From Rhizophagus irregularis (Eukaryota > Glomeromycota > Glomeromycetes > Glomerales > Glomeraceae), in assembly GCF_026210795.1 (NCBI RefSeq), contig NC_089441.1:3348001-3412000 (forward strand): a stretch of 64,000 nt of DNA, given 5' to 3'. The translations under genes and the position numbers were made by a program. The notes beneath the pieces are model-generated. The model was not told where the DNA came from. It saw only the letters and a list, made by a program, of their open reading frames with translations, and ran no database searches. Below, in pieces: positions 1,883 to 63,735 of this stretch. Every line of letters begins with the position of its first letter. Position 1 is the first letter of the stretch.

Positions 1883-3987
1883 AAAAGAGAAAAGAAACAA
1901 AATATTAATAATTATTTCATTAAAGAGTTAGGCCAAAAACATTCCTCTTTACCAAAATCTTTGTCCAAAAATATTCAAAAAAATATCAAAATTTATCATG
2001 TAAAAAAAAAAAAAAGTGAGGGAAAGGGAAGTACGAAAAAGAGAGATAGGGGAAAAATGAAAAGAGGGAAAGGGAAATTATGAAAGAGAAAGGAAAGAGG
2101 AAAAAATGAGAGAGGAAAGTTTACCAAAAAAAAGTTTATTCCGAAAAAGTTTAAACATTTTTAGACTTTTTTTTTAAACTAGACTTTTTAAAGTTTAAAA
2201 AAAGTGATTGTTATATTGTTAATATTAAATCACATGATGCGCGTAATACTTAATTTATTACAAAAAGTTTGTATAACCGAAAATATGGACTTTTTTTTCC
2301 CCATTTAAAATACTTATTTAACGGGCGTCTATTTGATTTTTTGCATTTTTATAAAAAATTGGATTAAACTGAACTGAACCGCTGGTTTTTCAGTTCTAAT
2401 ACCCAAACTGAACCAAACTGAATTTTGAGCCAGTTTTGGATCAGTTCCCTGGTTTAACCCGAATTGTTAGGAGCTTTAAAAAGGATATTGAGAGAAAGTA
2501 AGGCCGTAAGGGGATAAACGGATAAACAATAAGCTGAAAGAGTAAACAATAAGCCACATATCACGTTAAACAATAATTATCATGTTTTTTATTTATTTAT
2601 TACAACAATAAATCAATAATAATATTCAATTTCACGTGACACTAGTGATCTTAACCGCCTGTTATTCAAAGTAATTACCTACTTAAAATATACTTAAATT
2701 ATACTTAAATTTAAATTTAATATATTATAAATATATTTTTTACATACTAAAAATATACTTATAATGGTCTTATAATATACTTAAATTTTAATTTAAATAT
2801 AATTTAAATATATTTTAAGTATATAGGTAAAAATTAAATATATTAGACATATATTTTAAAATAATTTTAAGTATATTTTAGATATATTAAAAATATATTA
2901 TAAGTATTTTGCAATTTTTAAATTAAGTATATTTTAAATTATACATGTAGTCAAAACCTTCATGAAGCTGGACAAGGTTTCGGCCTTTCAGTAATTTAAT
3001 TATAATAAATTATTAAAAACTATCCAGAAATCCATCTGAAACTTCAAAGACTTTATATTATAGTTTCAGCTGAATGTAGAGATTAATTTTTATCATTTTT
3101 TAACTTAATTTTGATTTAAAGATGTGGCCGAAAATCACGTGAAAAGGTTTTGGCTACAAGTATATTTTAAATATATTTTAAATATATTTTAAGTATAATA
3201 CTTTTTATAGGATATGTAAACATAATCATCTAAAATTTGTTAAAAGATTTTACTAGATTTTAGAAAGTGTAGAGAAGTTCTTAAATAATTTCAACCTTAT
3301 TAGCAACAATTTTAGCAAGGCTTATATATAAAGTTAATTAAGTGGATAAAGGTAAATAAGTTTAGCCAAAATTGTTGCCAATAAAACTAAAATTATCTGA
3401 GAATTTTCTGCCAAATCTCAGTTGGTTATTTTTATATACTTTGGAATTATGCTACAAAGTCAAAATTGGCCTAAAATTAAAAATTATTTTGGCAACATGC
3501 ATATATATTCAAAATCCTATACATATTTTAATAAATATCAGCTAATTTATATTAATATAAAAGATAAATGTAATTACATTAAAATAACTTTAAATATTAT
3601 TATTACAGTAGCAAATAATACATGTAATTTAATCTACCTATTATATTACTTCCTTTGCTATTCCTGGATATTTAATTTATAAAATCATCCTTTTTACTAA
3701 AACTCAAAAAATCATTTTTTGCAAATATCTTATCCAATTTTAATGAACTTTTTTAAAAATAATAGAACTTAATAAGGGTTATAAAATAAAAAATTTTCAT
3801 TAAAATTGGATGTATAACCCTAATTTTTAATTTTTTAAAAAATAGTTTAATTTATTAAAAGTATAACAAATGTGACTTATAACTTGTTTTAAAGATATAT
3901 CCAGAATCCTATAATTGGTATATACAAATTATAAATTATTAATTTTACAAATTTTATTAATTATTTTATTTTATAATAAATTAACTA
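1883..3987. other. Gene-free AT-rich repeat DNA with a purine tract and a palindromic module
   Basis: About 1985-2115 is a purine-rich tract (GGGAAAG, GAGAGG repeats) next to array 1; a similar tract at 35.57-35.69 kb flanks array 3. About 2360-2470 holds AACTGAACC-type repeats like those at hAT ends. From 2680 to 3200 the DNA is TATATTTTAAGTATA low complexity. About 3700-3840 is a diverged copy of the palindromic module also seen near 29.9, 32.3 and 34.0 kb. No gene is supported; short reading frames at 1856-2083 and 3422-3682 are compositional. Confidence 0.4.
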
Positions 3988-29854: not shown

Positions 29855-30549
29855 ATACAATTAGTTTGCTATCTAATAATCCAATTTGCATAAATTTTTT
29901 TTGTTTTGTAGTCCCATTTATGTTTTATAAAATAAATAATAATTCATTGAAATTGGACTGCTAGATGGTGAAATAATTGCAAAAAAGCTTATTAATAAAT
30001 AAATTACTATATATTATATATACAGTCAGCCCCCTTTATAGTTACATCCCTTCCGAAAAAAAAGGATGTGATTATAAAAAAAGTCATATGTTGTGACTAT
30101 AGAAGAGGTTTTTCTAATATATTTATTAGTACATTAGGCCAAAATATGGTGTGCTTATAAAGGGGAATTTTATATGTTGTGATTATACAGGGTAACTATA
30201 TAGGGGGTTGACTGTATATTATAATACAATTATTTCACTATCCAATAATCCAATTTGCATAAACTTTTTTTTGTTTTGTAAACCTCTTTATGCTTTACAA
30301 AACAAAAAAAAAATCATTAAAATTGAACTGCTAGATAGTAAGTTAATTGCAAAAAAGCTTCTTAATAAATAAATTACTATATATTACATATATATTATAA
30401 TACAATTATTTTACTATTCAATAATTCAATTTGCATAAACTTTTTTTTTTGTAGCCCTCTTTATACTTTATAAAACAAAAAATAATTCATTGAAATTGGA
30501 CTTTTAGATAGTGAGATAATTTCAAAAAAGCTTCTTAATAAACAAATTA
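29855..30549 (+). repeat. Three direct copies of a 155-190 bp unit, the first two split by a MITE
   Basis: Each copy reads CCAATTTGCATAAA, then a T-run, TGTTTTGTAG, TTTATAAAA, ATTGAAATTGGACTGCTAGAT, GCAAAAAAGCTT and ends AATAAATTACTATATATTA. Approximate limits are 29855-30020, 30217-30395 and 30397-30549. The unit belongs to the palindromic module family described separately. Confidence 0.65.
30023..30214. mobile_element. Pogo/Tc1-like MITE, 192 bp, TA target duplication
   Basis: It begins CAGTCAGCCCCCTTTATAG and ends, read inward from the other side, CAGTCAACCCCCTATATAG, flanked by TA on both sides. There is no coding capacity. CAGT termini plus TA duplication are typical of pogo/Tc1-mariner elements. 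It interrupts the direct-repeat array between its first and second copies. Confidence 0.75.
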
Positions 30550-30662
30550 CAATCCCCTCTTGATATAACGAACCCTGCATCCCAGCCGATCAGGACTTCA
30601 TTATAAGCAACTTCTTTAACACTATAACGAATTATTCAGTATAGGTATATTGGTCATATAGA

Positions 30663-30906
30663 TAAGGTTGCTTGTCTAAACCTCTTCAAAATCCTACGAT
30701 TAGTTTCATTAAAATTTTACTATAGATTTATTATAGTTTCAGCAGAGTTTTGGCAGTTTTGGCATTTATAATAAGTTTCTGCAGTTTCACCTTTCTCCAA
30801 AGTTTCGCCAGTTTTTTAATATAACTTTAATATAGTTTTGGCAGAATTTCACTTTTCGGCAAAACGCCATCTTGCCTAAACCCCTAGGTTTCGGCAAGCA
30901 ACCTTA
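30663..30906. mobile_element. TAAGGTTGC MITE copy 1, 244 bp, exact 8-bp target duplication
   Basis: Its termini are TAAGGTTGCTTG and CAAGCAACCTTA. CATATAGA is duplicated exactly on both sides. The interior holds repeated TTTGGCAG/TTTCGCCAG motifs. A second copy of identical length lies at 51508-51751. The 8-bp duplication points to hAT mobilisation. Confidence 0.85.
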
Positions 30907-30983
30907 CATATAGATCATGTGACTTGCTAATCTAATTACTGATAATTCAATTACTAACATTTTTTTTATTTTTTTTATTGTAG

Positions 30984-31511
30984 TGAACTTCCCAGACTTC
31001 AAAATGGTCGCCTGAAACGAGAAGTAAGTGGGAATAATTCATTTTTTTTATTAATTTCATTTAAGAACATTTACTAATGTTCTTTTTTTATTTTTTTTAT
31101 TGTAGTGAACTTCTCGGACTTCGAAATAGACGTCTGGAATGAGAAGTAAGTGGGAATAGCTCATTTTTTTTATTAATTTCATTTAAGAACATTTACTAAT
31201 GTTCTTTTTTTATTTTTTTTTATTGTAGTGAACTTCCCAGATTTCGAAGTAGATGTCTGGAACAAGAAGTAAGTGGGGAAAACTCATTTTGTTTATTAAT
31301 TTCATTTAAGAACATTTACTAATGTTCTTTTTTATTTTTTTATTGTAGTGAACTTTCCGGATTTCGAAATAGACGCCTAAAATGAGAAGTAAGTGGGGAC
31401 AATTCATTTTTTTTTATTAATTTCGTTTAAGAACATTTACCAATGTTCTTTTTTTATTTTTTTTATTGTAGTAAACTTCCTGGACTTTGAAATGAATGCT
31501 TGAAACGAGGA
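30984..31511 (+). repeat. Array 2: five 40-nt exon-like cassettes with splice borders, period about 122 nt
   Basis: Exon-like blocks lie at 30984-31023, 31106-31145, 31229-31268, 31349-31388 and 31472-31511, each 40 nt, beginning TGAACTT (TAAACTT in the last) and ending GAGAA (AAGAA, GAGGA in two). Each is preceded by a T-rich tract ending ATTGTAG and followed, in the first four, by GTAAGTGGG. Spacers are 82, 83, 80 and 83 nt, the size of real introns here. The fifth copy has lost its donor. The block length (40 nt) is not a multiple of three and the blocks contain stops, so a joined product is unlikely to be a protein. Confidence 0.8.
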
Positions 31512-31559
31512 ACTCATTTTTTTTATTAATTTCGTATAACATTATTTACTAATGTTCTT

Positions 31560-32249
31560 TACTATCAGTGGTGATTTTTTTGGTAGTATTTTATAATGCT
31601 TTTTAAATAATATTAATAGGAATTTTTGACATGTCATGTAAATATCATATTTAATAACATATATATTAATAAGTCTATTAACAAGTATGATATTTAATAT
31701 TAATATTGTAACTAATATAAAAGGATAATTGTCATATATTACAAAATTATTATTTTACATTTCATTGTAATATGGTATTTTAATATATATTAAATTATAA
31801 TAGCAATTATATTGTCAATTATTTCAAAATATACATTATAGGATTATTATATGATAATCAAAAAAATAGGCACTGATAGCTAAGTTTCTTTTTTTAGTTT
31901 TTTATTGCAGGGAATGCTTCCTGAAGTGTTCTACTTTTTTTTGTAGATTTTAGTTTGGAACTTGAAAATGGAGACCGATGAGTATTTTTAAAGGGTTGGA
32001 AATGGGTTTTTAATTTTTTTATGTAAAAATGTTTATTATAATTCTTTTTTTGTAGGAAATAATTTAATGTTGTTTACAATAACTGACTATATAATAAATA
32101 AATAATTATTGTTTTTTAATGATATGTTAATTTAATCAGAAGTATTCTTTAAGGTCCTGTTACTACTGTGATAAATATAAATTAATAACAACTCACATCG
32201 AATCCTAATACAATTAAATTAATGTAAATTAACATAATTCTGCCTAAAT
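31560..32249. other. AT-rich interior of the 2.4-kb element, no gene
   Basis: Low-complexity AT-rich DNA. One further acceptor-like block, TTTTTATTGCAG followed by GGAATGCTTCC, occurs at about 31901-31925. No coding frame seen. Confidence 0.35.
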
Positions 32250-32544
32250 AGGACCCCAGATATCTCCAAAACAGGTCATAAGTCACACTTTCGGCAGATT
32301 GGCCCATTTTTCAGGGGCTCAAAAAATCGTTTTTGTAAATATCTCGGCATCCAGTGGTCCAATTTTGATGAACATTTTTTTAAATTGTAGAGCTAAATGA
32401 GGGCTACAAAATAAAAAAAATTCATTAAAATTGAATTACTGGATGCTGAGATATTTACAAAAAACGATTTTTTGAGTTTCAGCAAAAAGGGGTGTTTTTG
32501 GCCAAAAGTCCATTATGACCTTTATATTAGATATCCGGGGTCCT
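32250..32544. mobile_element. AGGACCCC MITE, 295 bp, exact 8-bp target duplication
   Basis: The ends AGGACCCCAGATATCT and AGATATCCGGGGTCCT are inverted repeats; GCCTAAAT is duplicated exactly on both sides (32242-32249, 32545-32552). The interior is a near-palindrome (about 32320-32485), with TTGTAAATATCTCGGCATCC facing GGATGCTGAGATATTTACAA, so the transcript would fold into one long hairpin. Confidence 0.85.
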
Positions 32545-32552
32545 GCCTAAAT

Positions 32553-33121
32553 ATTAAATAAAATAGCCAGAATTATCAATCCTAATACGATCTTGATATG
32601 ATTCTGATCTATAATTTAAGTATAAAATACGGGAATGATGTTTAATGTCATACAATATTTGTGCATTAATCTAATTATTAATAAAATTATTTAATTACAT
32701 ACAATCAAAAACTGCAAAATTCTTTGTTATACTGAAAAAAAATTCAGTATAAAAAAAATCCGTTATATTGAGAGGTATTTTTATATAAGCAATTTACACA
32801 CTTTACTTCATACTACATTATACGGTAAATAAATAGTAAACTTCATTATATCAAGGTTTTTTTTATATTTAAAATCAGTACCATACTGAAAATCTGTTAT
32901 ATCGTGTTATTTGTTATATAGAGGTTCACTGTAAAGAGGGAGACTGTATATATTATTTACTATAAAAAATATACTATTACCATAAAAGGTATATTATGAT
33001 ACCTAATTGCAGGACTACTAAATCACGTAATTTTTGGCATGCCCCTTACCGAACAACTGAGATTCCATTCAAACCAAAAAAGCTCTGATCAATAATAGCA
33101 TTCTACATATAGCAATTAAAC
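32553..33121. other. Repeat-derived DNA, end of the pogo-like element and outer shell of the nest
   Basis: Contains subterminal GTTATAT repeats up to 32946. At about 33013-33040 the text AATCACGTAATTTTTGGCATGCC is the inverted counterpart of GGCGTGCCAGAAATCACGTGATT at about 29722-29745, suggesting that the whole 29.4-33.0 kb block is one older element filled with later insertions. No gene. Confidence 0.4.
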
Positions 33122-33505: not shown

Positions 33506-33890
33506 AAAAAAATAAAACCAAAACTAAGATTCATATATACTTATAAATCTTAGTTCTTTTTCATTCTTCAGAATTTGGAAATCTACCTGATCCTAAAAAT
33601 AAAAACAGTTATTAGTAATCGTTTATTAATAATATTATAAAAAAAAAGAAAAAAATCAAGATTTATAATTAATAGTTACTTATGAATCTTGATTTTTCAT
33701 TCTTCGGAATTTGGAAATCCACCCGATCCTAAAAAAAAGTAAAAAACGGTTATTAGTAATCGTTCATTAATAATATTAAAAAAAAAAAAATCAAGATTCG
33801 TAATTAGTAATTATTTACGAATTTTAATTTTCCGTTCTTCAAAATTCAGAAATCCACCTGATCCTAAAAAAAAGTAAAGAACGGTTATTA

Positions 33891-34855: not shown

Positions 34856-35345
34856 TATTAAAAAAAAAGAAAAAAAATCAAGATTCGTAATTAGTAGTTA
34901 CTTATGAATCTTGATTTTCCGTTCTTCATAATTCAGAAATCCACTTGATCCTAAAAAAAAGAAAAAAAAACAAAACCAAAATTTATATATACTTACGAAT
35001 CTTAGTTCTTTTCCATTTTTCAGAACTAGAAAGCCTGCCCAAAACCTAAAAAGAAGAAAGGAACGGTTATTAGTAACCATTTCATAATATTAAAAAAAAC
35101 AAATAAATAAACCAAGATTCGTATTTACAAATCTTGGTTCATCCATTCATCGGAAATCCACTGAACCTATCATAAAAAGAAAGAAAGGAACAGTTAGTAA
35201 CCGTTCTGAAATATTTAAAAAAAATAAAAACCAAGATTCTTAAGAATTTTGTTTCTAAATCCCCATCTTCCTTCTCACATTTTTTACCTTAAAGTTCAGT
35301 TTCATGTTAAAGCTGGCGTCCTCCTATGCGTCCTACAAAAAAAAT

Positions 35346-35731
35346 AATAAAAAGAAACGTTAATTCATTTCTTAAATTAACAAAACTTCCTCTTTCCCAT
35401 TTTTTAAAGTCAGACTCCTACAAAAAAAAAACAATGAAAAGAAATGTTAATTCATTTCTTAAATTAAAAAAAATATATAAAATTAAAAAAAAATAAATTA
35501 AAAAAAAACATGTAAGTTTCAAAATGAAATTTACATTACTTCCAAGAAAAAGAGGCGGAAGAAAGGTATGAAAAAAGGGGAAGAGCGAAAGGAAAAGCAA
35601 GGGAAGGACGAAAGGGAAAGGAAAGGATAATAGGAGAAAGTAAAGAAGTAAGGGACGAAGGGAAGTGAAAGGAAGGAAAAGGGAAAGTTTAAAAAATATC
35701 CTTTTTTAAACTTTTGATATGCGTAATGCGT
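35346..35731. other. Purine-rich tract bordering array 3
   Basis: Between 35570 and 35690 the plus strand is almost all purine (GGGAAAGG, GAAAGG repeats); on the array strand this is a long polypyrimidine leader. The last 9 bases, GTAATGCGT, are the target duplication of the next element. Confidence 0.45.
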
Positions 35732-59744: not shown

Positions 59745-60310
59745 TATTTTTGTGATGTTAATTTGGTGTTAATATAATATCATTACAACGTTACGATATT
59801 AAAATAAATGTAAAACATTTTTTGTAATATTAATTCGATATTAATATGATATTATTATGATGTAGTTATGATATCAAATAAAATTGTAATATTAATTTAA
59901 TGTTAATACGACATCACTACGTGATATCAAATAGATGTAAAATATTTTTGCAATATTAATTCAATGTTAATATGATATTACTACGATGTGATTATGATAT
60001 CAAACAAAATGTCAAATATTTTTGCAATATTAATTCGATGTTAATATGATATCACTACGATATGGTTACGATATCAAATAAAATGTCAAATATTTTTGCA
60101 ATATTAATTCAATGTTAATATGATATCACTACGATGTGGTTACGATATCAAATAAAATGTCAAATATTTTGTAATATTAATTCAATATTAATATGATATC
60201 ACTACGATATGGTTACGATATCAAATAATGTCATATTTTTGTAATATTAATTCAATGTTAATATGACATTACTACGATGTGGTTACGTGATAATATTTAC
60301 ATCGCATAAT
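59745..60310 (+). repeat. Minisatellite, about 8 units of roughly 75-80 bp
   Basis: The unit reads TTTTTGCAATATTAATTC, AATGTTAATATGATATCAC, TACGATGTGGTTACGATATC, AAATAAAATGTCAAATA. Copies at both ends are more diverged than those in the middle, as in an array growing by unequal exchange. Most units contain one or two GATATC palindromes. Confidence 0.75.
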
Positions 60311-60816: not shown

Positions 60817-61183
60817 TAGTGTTGTTATCGGCCCAGTTCGGTCTGACTTGAAGCTAAAGTCAAGCCACGCTGATAAAAAGTCAAGCTGAACCAAGCCGAA
60901 CTGAATCGACTTGAAGTTATAAGTCGAACCAAACCGTAAAGCCAACGGCGGGCTGATGGAGTCGATGAAGTCGATGGAATCGATGGCAGGCTGATGGCGG
61001 GCCGATGGTCAATATAATGGCGGGCTGATGGGGGTCGATGGCGGGCCGATGGGGTCGATGGAGTTGATGGAATCGATATAATCAAATAAATCAATAAATT
61101 TATAACTAAATAATAAAAACACTTTAAATTTATTTTTATATTTAAAATTTAAACTTTATTTATTAATTTTATAAAATATAAAT

Positions 61184-63210
61184 TCAACTAAATAGTTGTA
61201 TCCATGAATTCAAACACATACATGCTTCAATTGCACTATCTCCCAACCTATTTCTTCTTTTATTAATCAATTCACCAGATTTGGAAAAAGCTTGTTCACT
61301 TGGGACAGATGTAGAAGGTATACCTATATAATCACGTGCAATTTTGGATAAAAGTGGATAATGTAACTTGTGATTTCTCCACCATTCACAGGGATTAATA
61401 TTTGAAGGTTCTAATGGAATTATTAAATATTCATTAATCTCATTACGTGATTGTGAATTATTGGATTTTTTCTTTTTTTGAAGCATATGATCTAAAAGTC
61501 CAATAGATTTTCTTTTATTTCCTTCTAAAGTATCATTATTATCTTCATCAAATAGTTTTTCCAAATCTTGATAATTATTAAATTTATCTATAAGCATCTG
61601 TTTTAAGTCTTCTTCATTAATATTATCAGGAAGTATTCGTGTCTTATAGCAAGGATCTAATACTAAAGCCAAATAAGCACTTGTATTATAAAGATTTCCT
61701 AATATAGAATTAAATTTGTCATTCATTTCTTGAGCAACTTCTTTTACCAATTTTATTTTGGTTTTATGTATAGTTGTTGTTATATAATCAGACAAATGAT
61801 CCAAAAGAAGTAATAATGTTCCAAGAGTAGGATAATTGGATCCAGACATTACTTCTGTAAAATCAAAAAATGGCTTTAAAAAACTGCAAAAATGTTCAAT
61901 TTCCTTCCATTCACTTTCTGATAGATCCAATTTAACAAAATCTTTATTTAAGGATAATACAGAAGTAATTATTAATTTGTTTGTAAGAAAAGATTCCAAC
62001 ATAGAATATGTGCTATTCCATCTGGTTCTGACATCACGTATTAATTTCTTATAATTGACTTGCAATTTCTCTGCCAAATCTAACAATTCTTGTTCTTTTT
62101 TTGGTGATCTTCTTATTTCTACAACAAAAGCTCTTACCTTATCAATAACAGGTTGTAATTTTTTTAATCCAGCATTTACTACAAGAGCAACTGTATGAGC
62201 ACCACACCTAATTATATTGAAATTTACTTGCAATTCACTTGAAAGGTTTGTAGAAAGTAAATTCATTCCTGCAACTTGATTATCTCCATTATCAATAGTA
62301 ATTGTTGAGGCTTTTGTTGTAATAGAAAATTCTTGAAAAATTTTCAAAGTTGCTTCTTTAATTTGTTCACCAGTGTTAGGGTGAGGAAATCTTTGAAAAG
62401 CAATTACTGTATGTTTCAAATCCCATTTATCATCAATCCAATGTGCAGTAAGGACCATATATGGAGCACCAGTATCAGATGTCCACATATCAGATGTAAA
62501 TGAAATTTTTGAATCATTTTCCTAAATAATTAAACAATTTAAGTAATGATAATAATTTTAAATAATCCATCATAAAATAAACTTACCTGAAATAATTTTA
62601 TAATATCTTTTTTATATTGACCATATTTTTCACCAATTTTTTTACGAAGAGTTTGTCTTGAAGGAATTTGAAATCTAGGATTAAGGCTTGTAATAAATTT
62701 TTTAAAATGGAGATTATCAACAACTCTAAATGGCTGGCAATCTGCAATCACCCAATTTACAAGATTATTTAAAATATCTAAATATTCTTCCCCTTGTAAT
62801 TTTGCATATGTTGTTTGAGCCCTACTAAATGCAACTTCAATTGATCCTGCTCCTCCAGGTTGAACCTTTGAATGCTTTTTTTCCCAATGATCATTGAGAG
62901 TAGTTGTGGAAGATTTTGAACTATAACTTTGATTACAATAATTACATTTAATACTTATACGATTACCATTTTCATCACAAATTTTTTCAAAATGCTGCCA
63001 AACTGTGCTTGGTGCACGAGTTGGAGGTATATTCTTCAGTTTCTTTTCTAATGAATGTAGCGAAACCTCTTCATCAGTCCTTTCTTCCTGCATCTCCTGC
63101 ATATAATCATCATCATTAATTATTTGAACAATTGGTTCTAATATACAATCCCCAATTGTCAAATCCCTTTCATTTTCACGATCATTATCCTTTTCTAGAT
63201 TATCACTCAT
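61184..63210 (-). CDS. hAT family transposase, zf-BED type (2 exons, 653 aa), apparently intact
   Basis: Exons 62587-63210 and 61184-62521 give 654 codons without a stop. Residues 1-65 are acidic; a BED zinc finger follows (STVWQHFEKI, CNYCNQSYSSKSS, LNDHWEKKHSK, with C-x2-C and H-x4-H). Then come ADCQPFRVVDNLHFKKFI and the RNase H-like core, with SFTSDMWTSDTGAPYMVLTA (first catalytic Asp), TITIDNGDNQVAGM (second Asp) and CGAHTVALVV, RTRWNSTYSML, LALVLDPCYKTRIL. The C-terminal hAT dimerisation domain reads WWRNHKLHYPLLSKIARDYI, STSVPSEQAFSKSGELINKR and LGDSAIEACMCLNSW. All expected blocks are present, so it may be active. Confidence 0.88.
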
Positions 63211-63369
63211 AATGAAAAATTGGAATGGGTTAGATTTTTCTGGATTCTGGAAATTTGAATTGTGAAATTAGATAATCAAAGTTTCTTCTATTTTTGATTT
63301 CAGTCATTTCACTTTTTAAATCTCTACTAACCTTCTCTTTTCATTTTTTTTTTGTATTTTTCTTTTTAG

Positions 63370-63735
63370 GAACGTCCAAAACACTCAGAATGGTTTCTTT
63401 TGATCGAAATTCGCCTAGAAACTCCGGAATTTAGGTAAGTTAATTCTTTTTTTTCTTTTATTTTCATTATTTAAGATAAATAGTTAAATACTAACCTTTC
63501 CTTTTGTATTTTTCTTTTTAGAAACGTCCGGAACGCTCAGAATGGTTTCTTTTGATCGAAATTCGCCTAGAAACTCCGGAATTTAGGTAAGTTATTTCTT
63601 TTTTTTTCTTTTGTTTTCATTATTTAAGATAAACATTAACCTTATTGTTTTTTTTCGCTATATTTCTTTTAGGAACGCGTAGAACGGTCTTGGCTCTTGA
63701 CTTCGTTGAAAATTGTTGAAAGTTAGGGGTTAAGC
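63370..63735 (+). repeat. Array 4: exon-like cassettes upstream of and divergent from the hAT transposase
   Basis: Two nearly identical 65-nt blocks, 63370-63434 and 63522-63586, share CAGAATGGTTTCTTTTGATC and CCTAGAAACTCCGGAATTTAG. Each is preceded by a pyrimidine tract ending TTTTTAG and followed by GTAAGTT. A third, diverged block starts after TTTTAG at 63673 (GAACGCGTAGAACGG). Spacers are 87 and 86 nt. The array begins 160 bp from the transposase start, on the other strand. Confidence 0.7.

Follow-up and report, generated by a model that had tools for sequence, protein, structure and literature searches.

The window analysed here is a 64,000-nt stretch of the forward strand of Rhizophagus irregularis (C13:3348001-3412000); the genome searched comprises 146,748,485 bases in 32 contigs. 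At the right end of the window lies a hAT element with a transposase on the minus strand and a short run of exon-like blocks and predicted introns on the plus strand. Its features are as follows.

60817-64031: hAT element, 3215 bp; the last 31 bp lie past the window end and were seen in L001
61184..62521, minus strand: transposase exon 2, 445 codons plus stop; hAT RNase-H-like fold and dimerisation region
62522..62586, minus strand: predicted transposase intron, 65 nt, GTAAGT..TAG
62587..63210, minus strand: transposase exon 1, 208 codons, open; zf-BED
63211..63369, plus strand: region from the ATG to block 1, resembling the 3' end of an intron (TACTAAC at 63325, T-tract, TAG at 63369)
63345-63496 and 63497-63648, plus strand: the two units of a 152-bp tandem duplication (TRF)
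63370..63434, plus strand: exon-like block 1, 65 nt
63435..63521, plus strand: predicted intron 1, 87 nt, GTAAGT..TACTAAC..TTTTTAG, score 10.1
63522..63586, plus strand: exon-like block 2, 65 nt, 61/65 identical to block 1
63587..63672, plus strand: predicted intron 2, 86 nt, GTAAGT..CATTAAC..TTTTAG, score 8.5
63673..63735, plus strand: third block, after the third acceptor (which ends at 63672); its 3' limit is that of the first-pass annotation

The element is bordered by terminal inverted repeats (TIRs), TAGTGTTGTTA and TAACAACACTA, at 60817 and 64031, which match at 11 of 11 positions, and a perfect 8-bp target-site duplication (TSD), ATAGTGGC, flanks both ends. These borders enclose the array, as the first-pass annotation had proposed. 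The transposase ATG is at 63210 on the minus strand and the array lies 160 bp away on the opposite strand, which bears out the head-to-head layout described there. PF02892, PF14372 and PF05699 (zf-BED, hAT-like RNase-H and hAT dimerisation) score above their curated cut-offs in the transposase, and Hermes is among the solved structures (PDB) matched by it with phmmer. The 8-bp TSD, the short TIR and the zf-BED, RNase-H-like and dimerisation domains place the element in the hAT superfamily, and together with the Hermes matches they are shared with elements of the Hermes/Ac type; the window element differs in its plus-strand exon-intron duplication between the transposase start and the right end. 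We know of no hAT element described with such a duplication. The transposase had been called intact, and the window copy is indeed open in both exons, with all three domains; it is the only copy found in which both exons are open. AATAAA occurs shortly after the stop codon on the transposase strand, and inverted subterminal repeats (I9/I15) are present at both ends of the element. About 0.5 kb to its left, a 74-bp tandem repeat is present in five copies (window 59923-60287).

Both 65-nt blocks start after a T-tract and AG and end in TTTAG directly before GTAAGT. Their coordinates, GTAAGT donors and T-tract/AG acceptors are as first described, and the blocks (61/65) are more alike than the 87- and 86-nt spacers (70/89 aligned columns identical), as was claimed. 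Within 63201-63700, the only GTAAGT motifs are those at the two block ends; TACTAAC is found at positions 63325 and 63489, and the second spacer carries CATTAAC in its place. No confident donor for the intron-like 3' end at 63369 was found in 63211..63369. The third block is unlike the first two (38/71 aligned columns), and no clear donor was seen at its 3' limit (63735). The description as an array thus holds in part: an intron/exon unit is repeated, but by a single 152-bp tandem duplication followed by a dissimilar third block, and the two units are hence not independent. A second, protein-coding gene of the element was considered and rejected, as the joined blocks 1+2+3 contain stops in 3/3 frames through to the element end.

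As a working class, a cassette array is a tandem series of short exons and ~65-110-nt introns with consensus donor, branch point and acceptor; the hAT array falls within this class, though with two units only. Introners are introns made by DNA transposons: the whole element acts as the intron, its splice sites lie at its ends or close to them, and it is inserted in genes. The present element resembles them as mobile DNA bearing splice signals, but it contains whole exon-intron units, its splice motifs are internal and its ends are hAT TIRs. Exon and intron gain by tandem genomic duplication is a known process, and the 152-bp duplication likewise adds one exon and one intron; here, however, the duplication lies inside a transposon and the joined blocks have no open frame.

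By an ad hoc consensus score (cut-off 5.5), which was devised after the array was known and whose shuffle figures therefore favour the array, the top intron of the 64-kb window on both strands reaches 10.1, matched in 0/1000 dinucleotide shuffles of the 821-bp region; a score of 8.49 was reached in 1/1000 of these, and two or more introns at the cut-off were found in 2/200 shuffles of the array region. No intron was called at this cut-off on the transposase strand of the region. On the array strand, neither AATAAA nor ATTAAA occurs from block 1 to the element end. Assignment to a known RNA family was also rejected, the single match being sub-threshold (CRISPR-DR26, E 0.52). We infer from the sequence motifs that the array strand is probably transcribed and spliced.

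A sister copy on C30 (3141 bp) is identical to the window copy at 3088 of 3138 aligned bases (98.4%), contains the array and has a different TSD (GTCTGCAG/GTCCGCAG, 7/8). Its transposase exon 2 is open, but length differences that shift the frame interrupt the BED region of exon 1. The idea that intact copies keep the array agrees with the sole intact copy, that of the window, but the sister copy has the array as well and, because its exon 1 is broken, this comparison rests on one intact copy. Over its 366 bp, the array of one copy differs from that of the other by 9 substitutions, each of them a transition; the non-coding part to the left has 10 in 312 aligned bp (a further 55 bp being gapped), that to the right 12 in 295 bp and the stretch from the ATG to the array 3 in 159 bp. 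The array thus appears to change at about the non-coding rate and looks neutral. Substitutions number 11 in 1338 bp in exon 2, 5 in 603 bp in exon 1 and 0 in 65 bp in the transposase intron; the exons together (16 changes in 1941 aligned bp) lie below the non-coding parts, including the array, which may be due to CpG content. The coding differences comprise 2 synonymous and 14 non-synonymous changes, and there is no sign of purifying selection on the transposase between these copies. As this coincides with the broken exon 1 of the C30 copy, the array's lack of constraint is weak evidence; at least one copy of the pair is decaying. Intron 1 differs between the copies at two positions, each in a splice signal: the last base of the branch point (TACTAAC/TACTAAT) and the G of the acceptor, where C30 retains an AG displaced by one base. 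In the C30 copy the second intron alone passes the cut-off, and 47/200 shuffles likewise have at least one such intron.

Among the best candidates scored in the genome searches, the array DNA matches only two full copies, those of the window and C30. Block 1 DNA and the block 2 peptide likewise match only at these two loci among the best candidates scored, and pattern searches, with the same scope, gave one extra match, on C10, with 2 mismatches. The blocks could have been part of a nested dispersed repeat, as the first-pass annotation had considered; these searches gave no sign of one, the matches being confined to two element copies barring the C10 pattern. The idea that a TPEFR-like peptide is common in R. 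irregularis predicted proteins was dropped, as one peptide search led to the two elements only.

Seven further loci (L003-L009) are 73-77% similar over the transposase. L003-L007 span the transposase to the right end and L008 and L009 are partial, so that the array comparison covers five relatives. Blastn of the array against L003-L007 gave no similarity except two short T-rich matches in L004, and Smith-Waterman scores of 33-40, compared with shuffle maxima of 37-47 (60 shuffles each), were not above the shuffles. The region upstream of the transposase is well conserved within subfamilies (L003/L005, L003/L004, L006/L007), which points to three subfamilies each with its own 5' region: A (window, C30), B (L003, L004, L005) and C (L006, L007). 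They differ over the whole 0.6-0.9 kb region. Subfamily B has pyrimidine tracts on the same strand as the array and an internal repeat, with no intron above the cut-off; subfamily C has no such pyrimidine tracts and one intron, score 9.4, on that strand. This score, in L006, was equalled in 0/500 shuffles, and by count alone 42/200 shuffles have one intron. Internal repeats were considered as a feature of the family and rejected as unspecific: they also score above every one of 40 shuffles in 3 of 7 control regions (L011, L024, L025). Across subfamilies, a layout that is conserved while its sequence changes fast is possible. A 621-bp non-autonomous relative on C7 (L037 2067-2687) has both element ends and a TSD, TCATTTAC, on both sides. 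Its sequence, read through, has an unrelated interior in which the array is absent; the array is therefore not needed in cis for mobilisation.

Outside the window family, the 820 bp upstream of the transposase were compared at 19 hAT loci, several of which share one family. At none of the 19 loci does the divergent strand carry more than one intron, so that a general divergent upstream array in this genome's hAT elements was rejected for this set. One divergent-strand intron was called in each of three loci (L018, 5.5; L024, 7.8; L028, 8.5), and the same 820 bp contain transposase-strand introns in L013 (four), L023 (one) and L029 (one). Pyrimidine tracts upstream of the transposase are absent in 18/19 of these loci; the exception, L026, has no splice signals and on reading bears no resemblance to a cassette array.

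L013 (1383 onward; C16:726382-731095) represents a second hAT family, with TIR TAAAGATGGTCA, TSD GAAGACGT and a transposase frame interrupted once. Six introns are called before its transposase, on the transposase strand (shuffle mean 0.94, maximum 4 in 200), and two on the strand opposite the transposase; the introns sit between the left end and the transposase, with short exons between them. Copies on C9 (L046 from 3301) and C27 (L047), found by an array-region query and with sequences that stop before the right ends, share the six introns.

A third case is a mariner-like TIR element of ~1.6 kb, with ends CAGTC next to TA, to which an array at window 30961-31509 belongs. An interrupted copy lies at about 30548-32948 of the window and another at L033 1959-3550. 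Six near-identical copies (L031-L036) carry the array, with 7 introns in L033; presence in all six is by construction, the copies having been fetched by array match. No transposase was noticed in L033. A 554-bp query from this array gave at least 86 matches (best 40 of 92 candidates). The units are ~110 bp long (GTAAGT..TTTACTAAT..TTGTAG) with exons of 30-40 nt, and the exons vary more among the six copies than the introns or flanks. Minority letters in the six aligned copies number 1/336 at the branch point, 3/252 at the acceptor, 8/251 at the donor, 14/2477 in the rest of the intron, 32/5013 in the flank and 23/1175 in the exon; as tandem repeats blur the alignment, these counts support the limited conclusion that the splice sites are not clearly protected.

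Exon-intron cassette arrays are common in the R. irregularis genome. An arbitrary sample of eight 9-kb stretches (72 kb) contained one clear array (L038 445-1014, five introns, exons of 42-47 nt) and, in L044, a 181-bp repeat with two introns called; an intron pair in L042 was discounted, the exon between being 1 nt, and the remaining five stretches had no intron run. In the window itself, runs of at least two introns were called at 998-1323, 1613-1952, 33593-33818 and 35046-35421 on the minus strand and, on the plus strand, at 30919-31471 and in the hAT array. The minus-strand runs (998-1952, 33593-33818, 35046-35421) have exons of 33-82 nt and are possibly spliced non-coding genes. Elsewhere, on C10 (about 3060000-3062350; L010 1500-3850), long exon-intron arrays have 13 introns called, and one kind of unit there ends in GGAATTTAG before GTAA, resembling the hAT blocks.

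On balance, the hAT array probably arose by neutral duplication of an exon-intron unit within a non-coding, probably spliced part of a low-copy hAT element, and is one of a common class of arrays. This reading builds on what is seen: the anatomy of the array, the borders of the element, the presence of the array in both near-identical copies, the lack of detectable homology in the relatives and the many similar arrays elsewhere in the genome. In this view, the low-copy element has transposed so recently in R. irregularis that two of its copies are still 98.4% identical. Its short non-coding stretch between the transposase start and the right end would read outwards as intron, short exon and intron, and one 152-bp tandem duplication, which took in an intron's 3' half, the whole 65-nt exon and the 5' part of the following intron, would have doubled the exon. 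If the strand is transcribed, the spliceosome would most likely remove the 86-87-nt introns of the window copy, leaving a putative non-coding RNA. Substitutions in the duplication would accumulate as they do in the element's remaining non-coding DNA, any role in transposition being hypothetical, and the array would be a member of a genome-common cassette class carried by several DNA transposons in either orientation. Judged by sequence features, the neutrality of the duplication, the non-coding nature of the RNA and the transcription and splicing of the strand are all plausible.

The first-pass annotation had suggested a special link between array and transposase, and this suggestion was not supported by the comparisons: the five relatives L003-L007 have no detectable homology to the array, L037 lacks it, the change between copies is neutral-like and includes splice-signal differences, similar arrays are common in the genome and the other hAT family has the opposite orientation. 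The occurrence of arrays in transposons in either orientation argues against any mechanism that requires the head-to-head layout. A broader proposal is that unrelated transposons (this hAT, the second hAT family and the mariner-like non-autonomous element) keep near-consensus intron arrays as a trait, because efficiently spliced transcripts are better expressed or exported, or are less visible to spliceosome-coupled silencing; we consider it unlikely. Rather unlikely, too, is a functional divergent RNA. Here a single bidirectional promoter would serve the array as well as the transposase, and the element would benefit from the spliced RNA or from the act of splicing: the transcript might be stable, might evade RNAi coupled to the spliceosome or might regulate the transposase. 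The 160-bp head-to-head spacing, the near-consensus introns, the intron-like or pyrimidine-rich features that subfamilies B and C retain on the same strand and the multi-intron arrays in other transposons of this genome are consistent with such an RNA, as is the observation, in part of the text of PMC5851062, that poorly spliced transposon transcripts in Cryptococcus feed siRNA via SCANR. However, no sequence conservation is detectable across subfamilies, change is neutral-like, with altered splice signals in C30 and one intron there passing the cut-off, the array strand lacks AATAAA/ATTAAA from block 1 to the element end, and in the second hAT family the orientation is opposite.

Alternatively, the element may have taken up a piece of a genomic cassette-array locus by transduplication. 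The abundance of cassette arrays in the genome, the five related copies with no detectable homologous stretch at this place and the C10 array locus, which has the same exon-end pattern with 2 mismatches, would fit such a capture. We nevertheless regard it as quite improbable: no donor locus turned up, with the two element copies alone matching the DNA of block 1 and the peptide of block 2 among the best candidates scored, and subfamily differences over 0.6-0.9 kb are also expected from fast divergence. It is very unlikely that there are no introns here and that the T-tracts instead serve the transposase promoter as poly(dA:dT) elements, the blocks being a doubled promoter unit or a doubled binding unit for the transposase, even though the unit is directly upstream of the transposase and pyrimidine tracts occur on the array strand in subfamilies A and B, for GTAAGT, TACTAAC and TAG are correctly ordered and spaced, with 0/1000 shuffles scoring as high, 18/19 other hAT loci have no such tracts (the exception, L026, being without splice signals) and the inverted subterminal repeats (I9/I15) are probably better candidates for transposase binding than the array blocks.

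By itself, a doubled exon-intron unit in a hAT element of two copies is of minor importance; what deserves interest is that multi-intron arrays borne by transposons recur as a class. In this arbuscular mycorrhizal fungus, near-consensus intron runs are present in non-coding sequence of at least three families of transposons. Non-coding transcription from fungal transposons is described in part of a study on Blumeria hordei, where antisense lncRNAs derive from transposable elements (PMC10648671), whereas the multi-intron anatomy of the hAT array is predicted from its sequence. In Cryptococcus, spliceosome-coupled nuclear RNAi (SCANR) links the splicing quality of transposon transcripts with silencing, according to portions of PMC5851062; a corresponding system in R. 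irregularis, and its action on this array, would be hypothetical. Whether these arrays are spliced would bear on the question of whether the silencing of transposons depends on splicing quality in organisms other than Cryptococcus. Sections of PMC10234402 report abundant small RNAs around young genomic regions in R. irregularis, and those of its passages that contain 'intron' concern gene models or read mapping. In the open-access literature no description of such arrays in Rhizophagus was recognised; 'intron' and 'tandem' occur 0 times in PMC11075540, as do 'intron' and 'splic' in PMC8647823.

A further feature concerns the branch point of some arrays. In the hAT array, branch-point palindromes have stems of 3-4 bp only, not above shuffles, and none was found in the 11 introns of three other window arrays; several arrays are without it, and 3/14 of the single predicted introns in the window have stems of 7-8 bp. 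In three unlike arrays, palindromes with stems of 9-10 bp, such as AAGAACATT-TACT-AATGTTCTT, frequently have the branch point in their loop; the loci with palindromes are window 31024-31348, L038 445-1014, L010 1800-2340 and L006 3039-3121. Of the 23 introns of those three arrays, 9 have a stem that is equalled in 0/200 shuffles.
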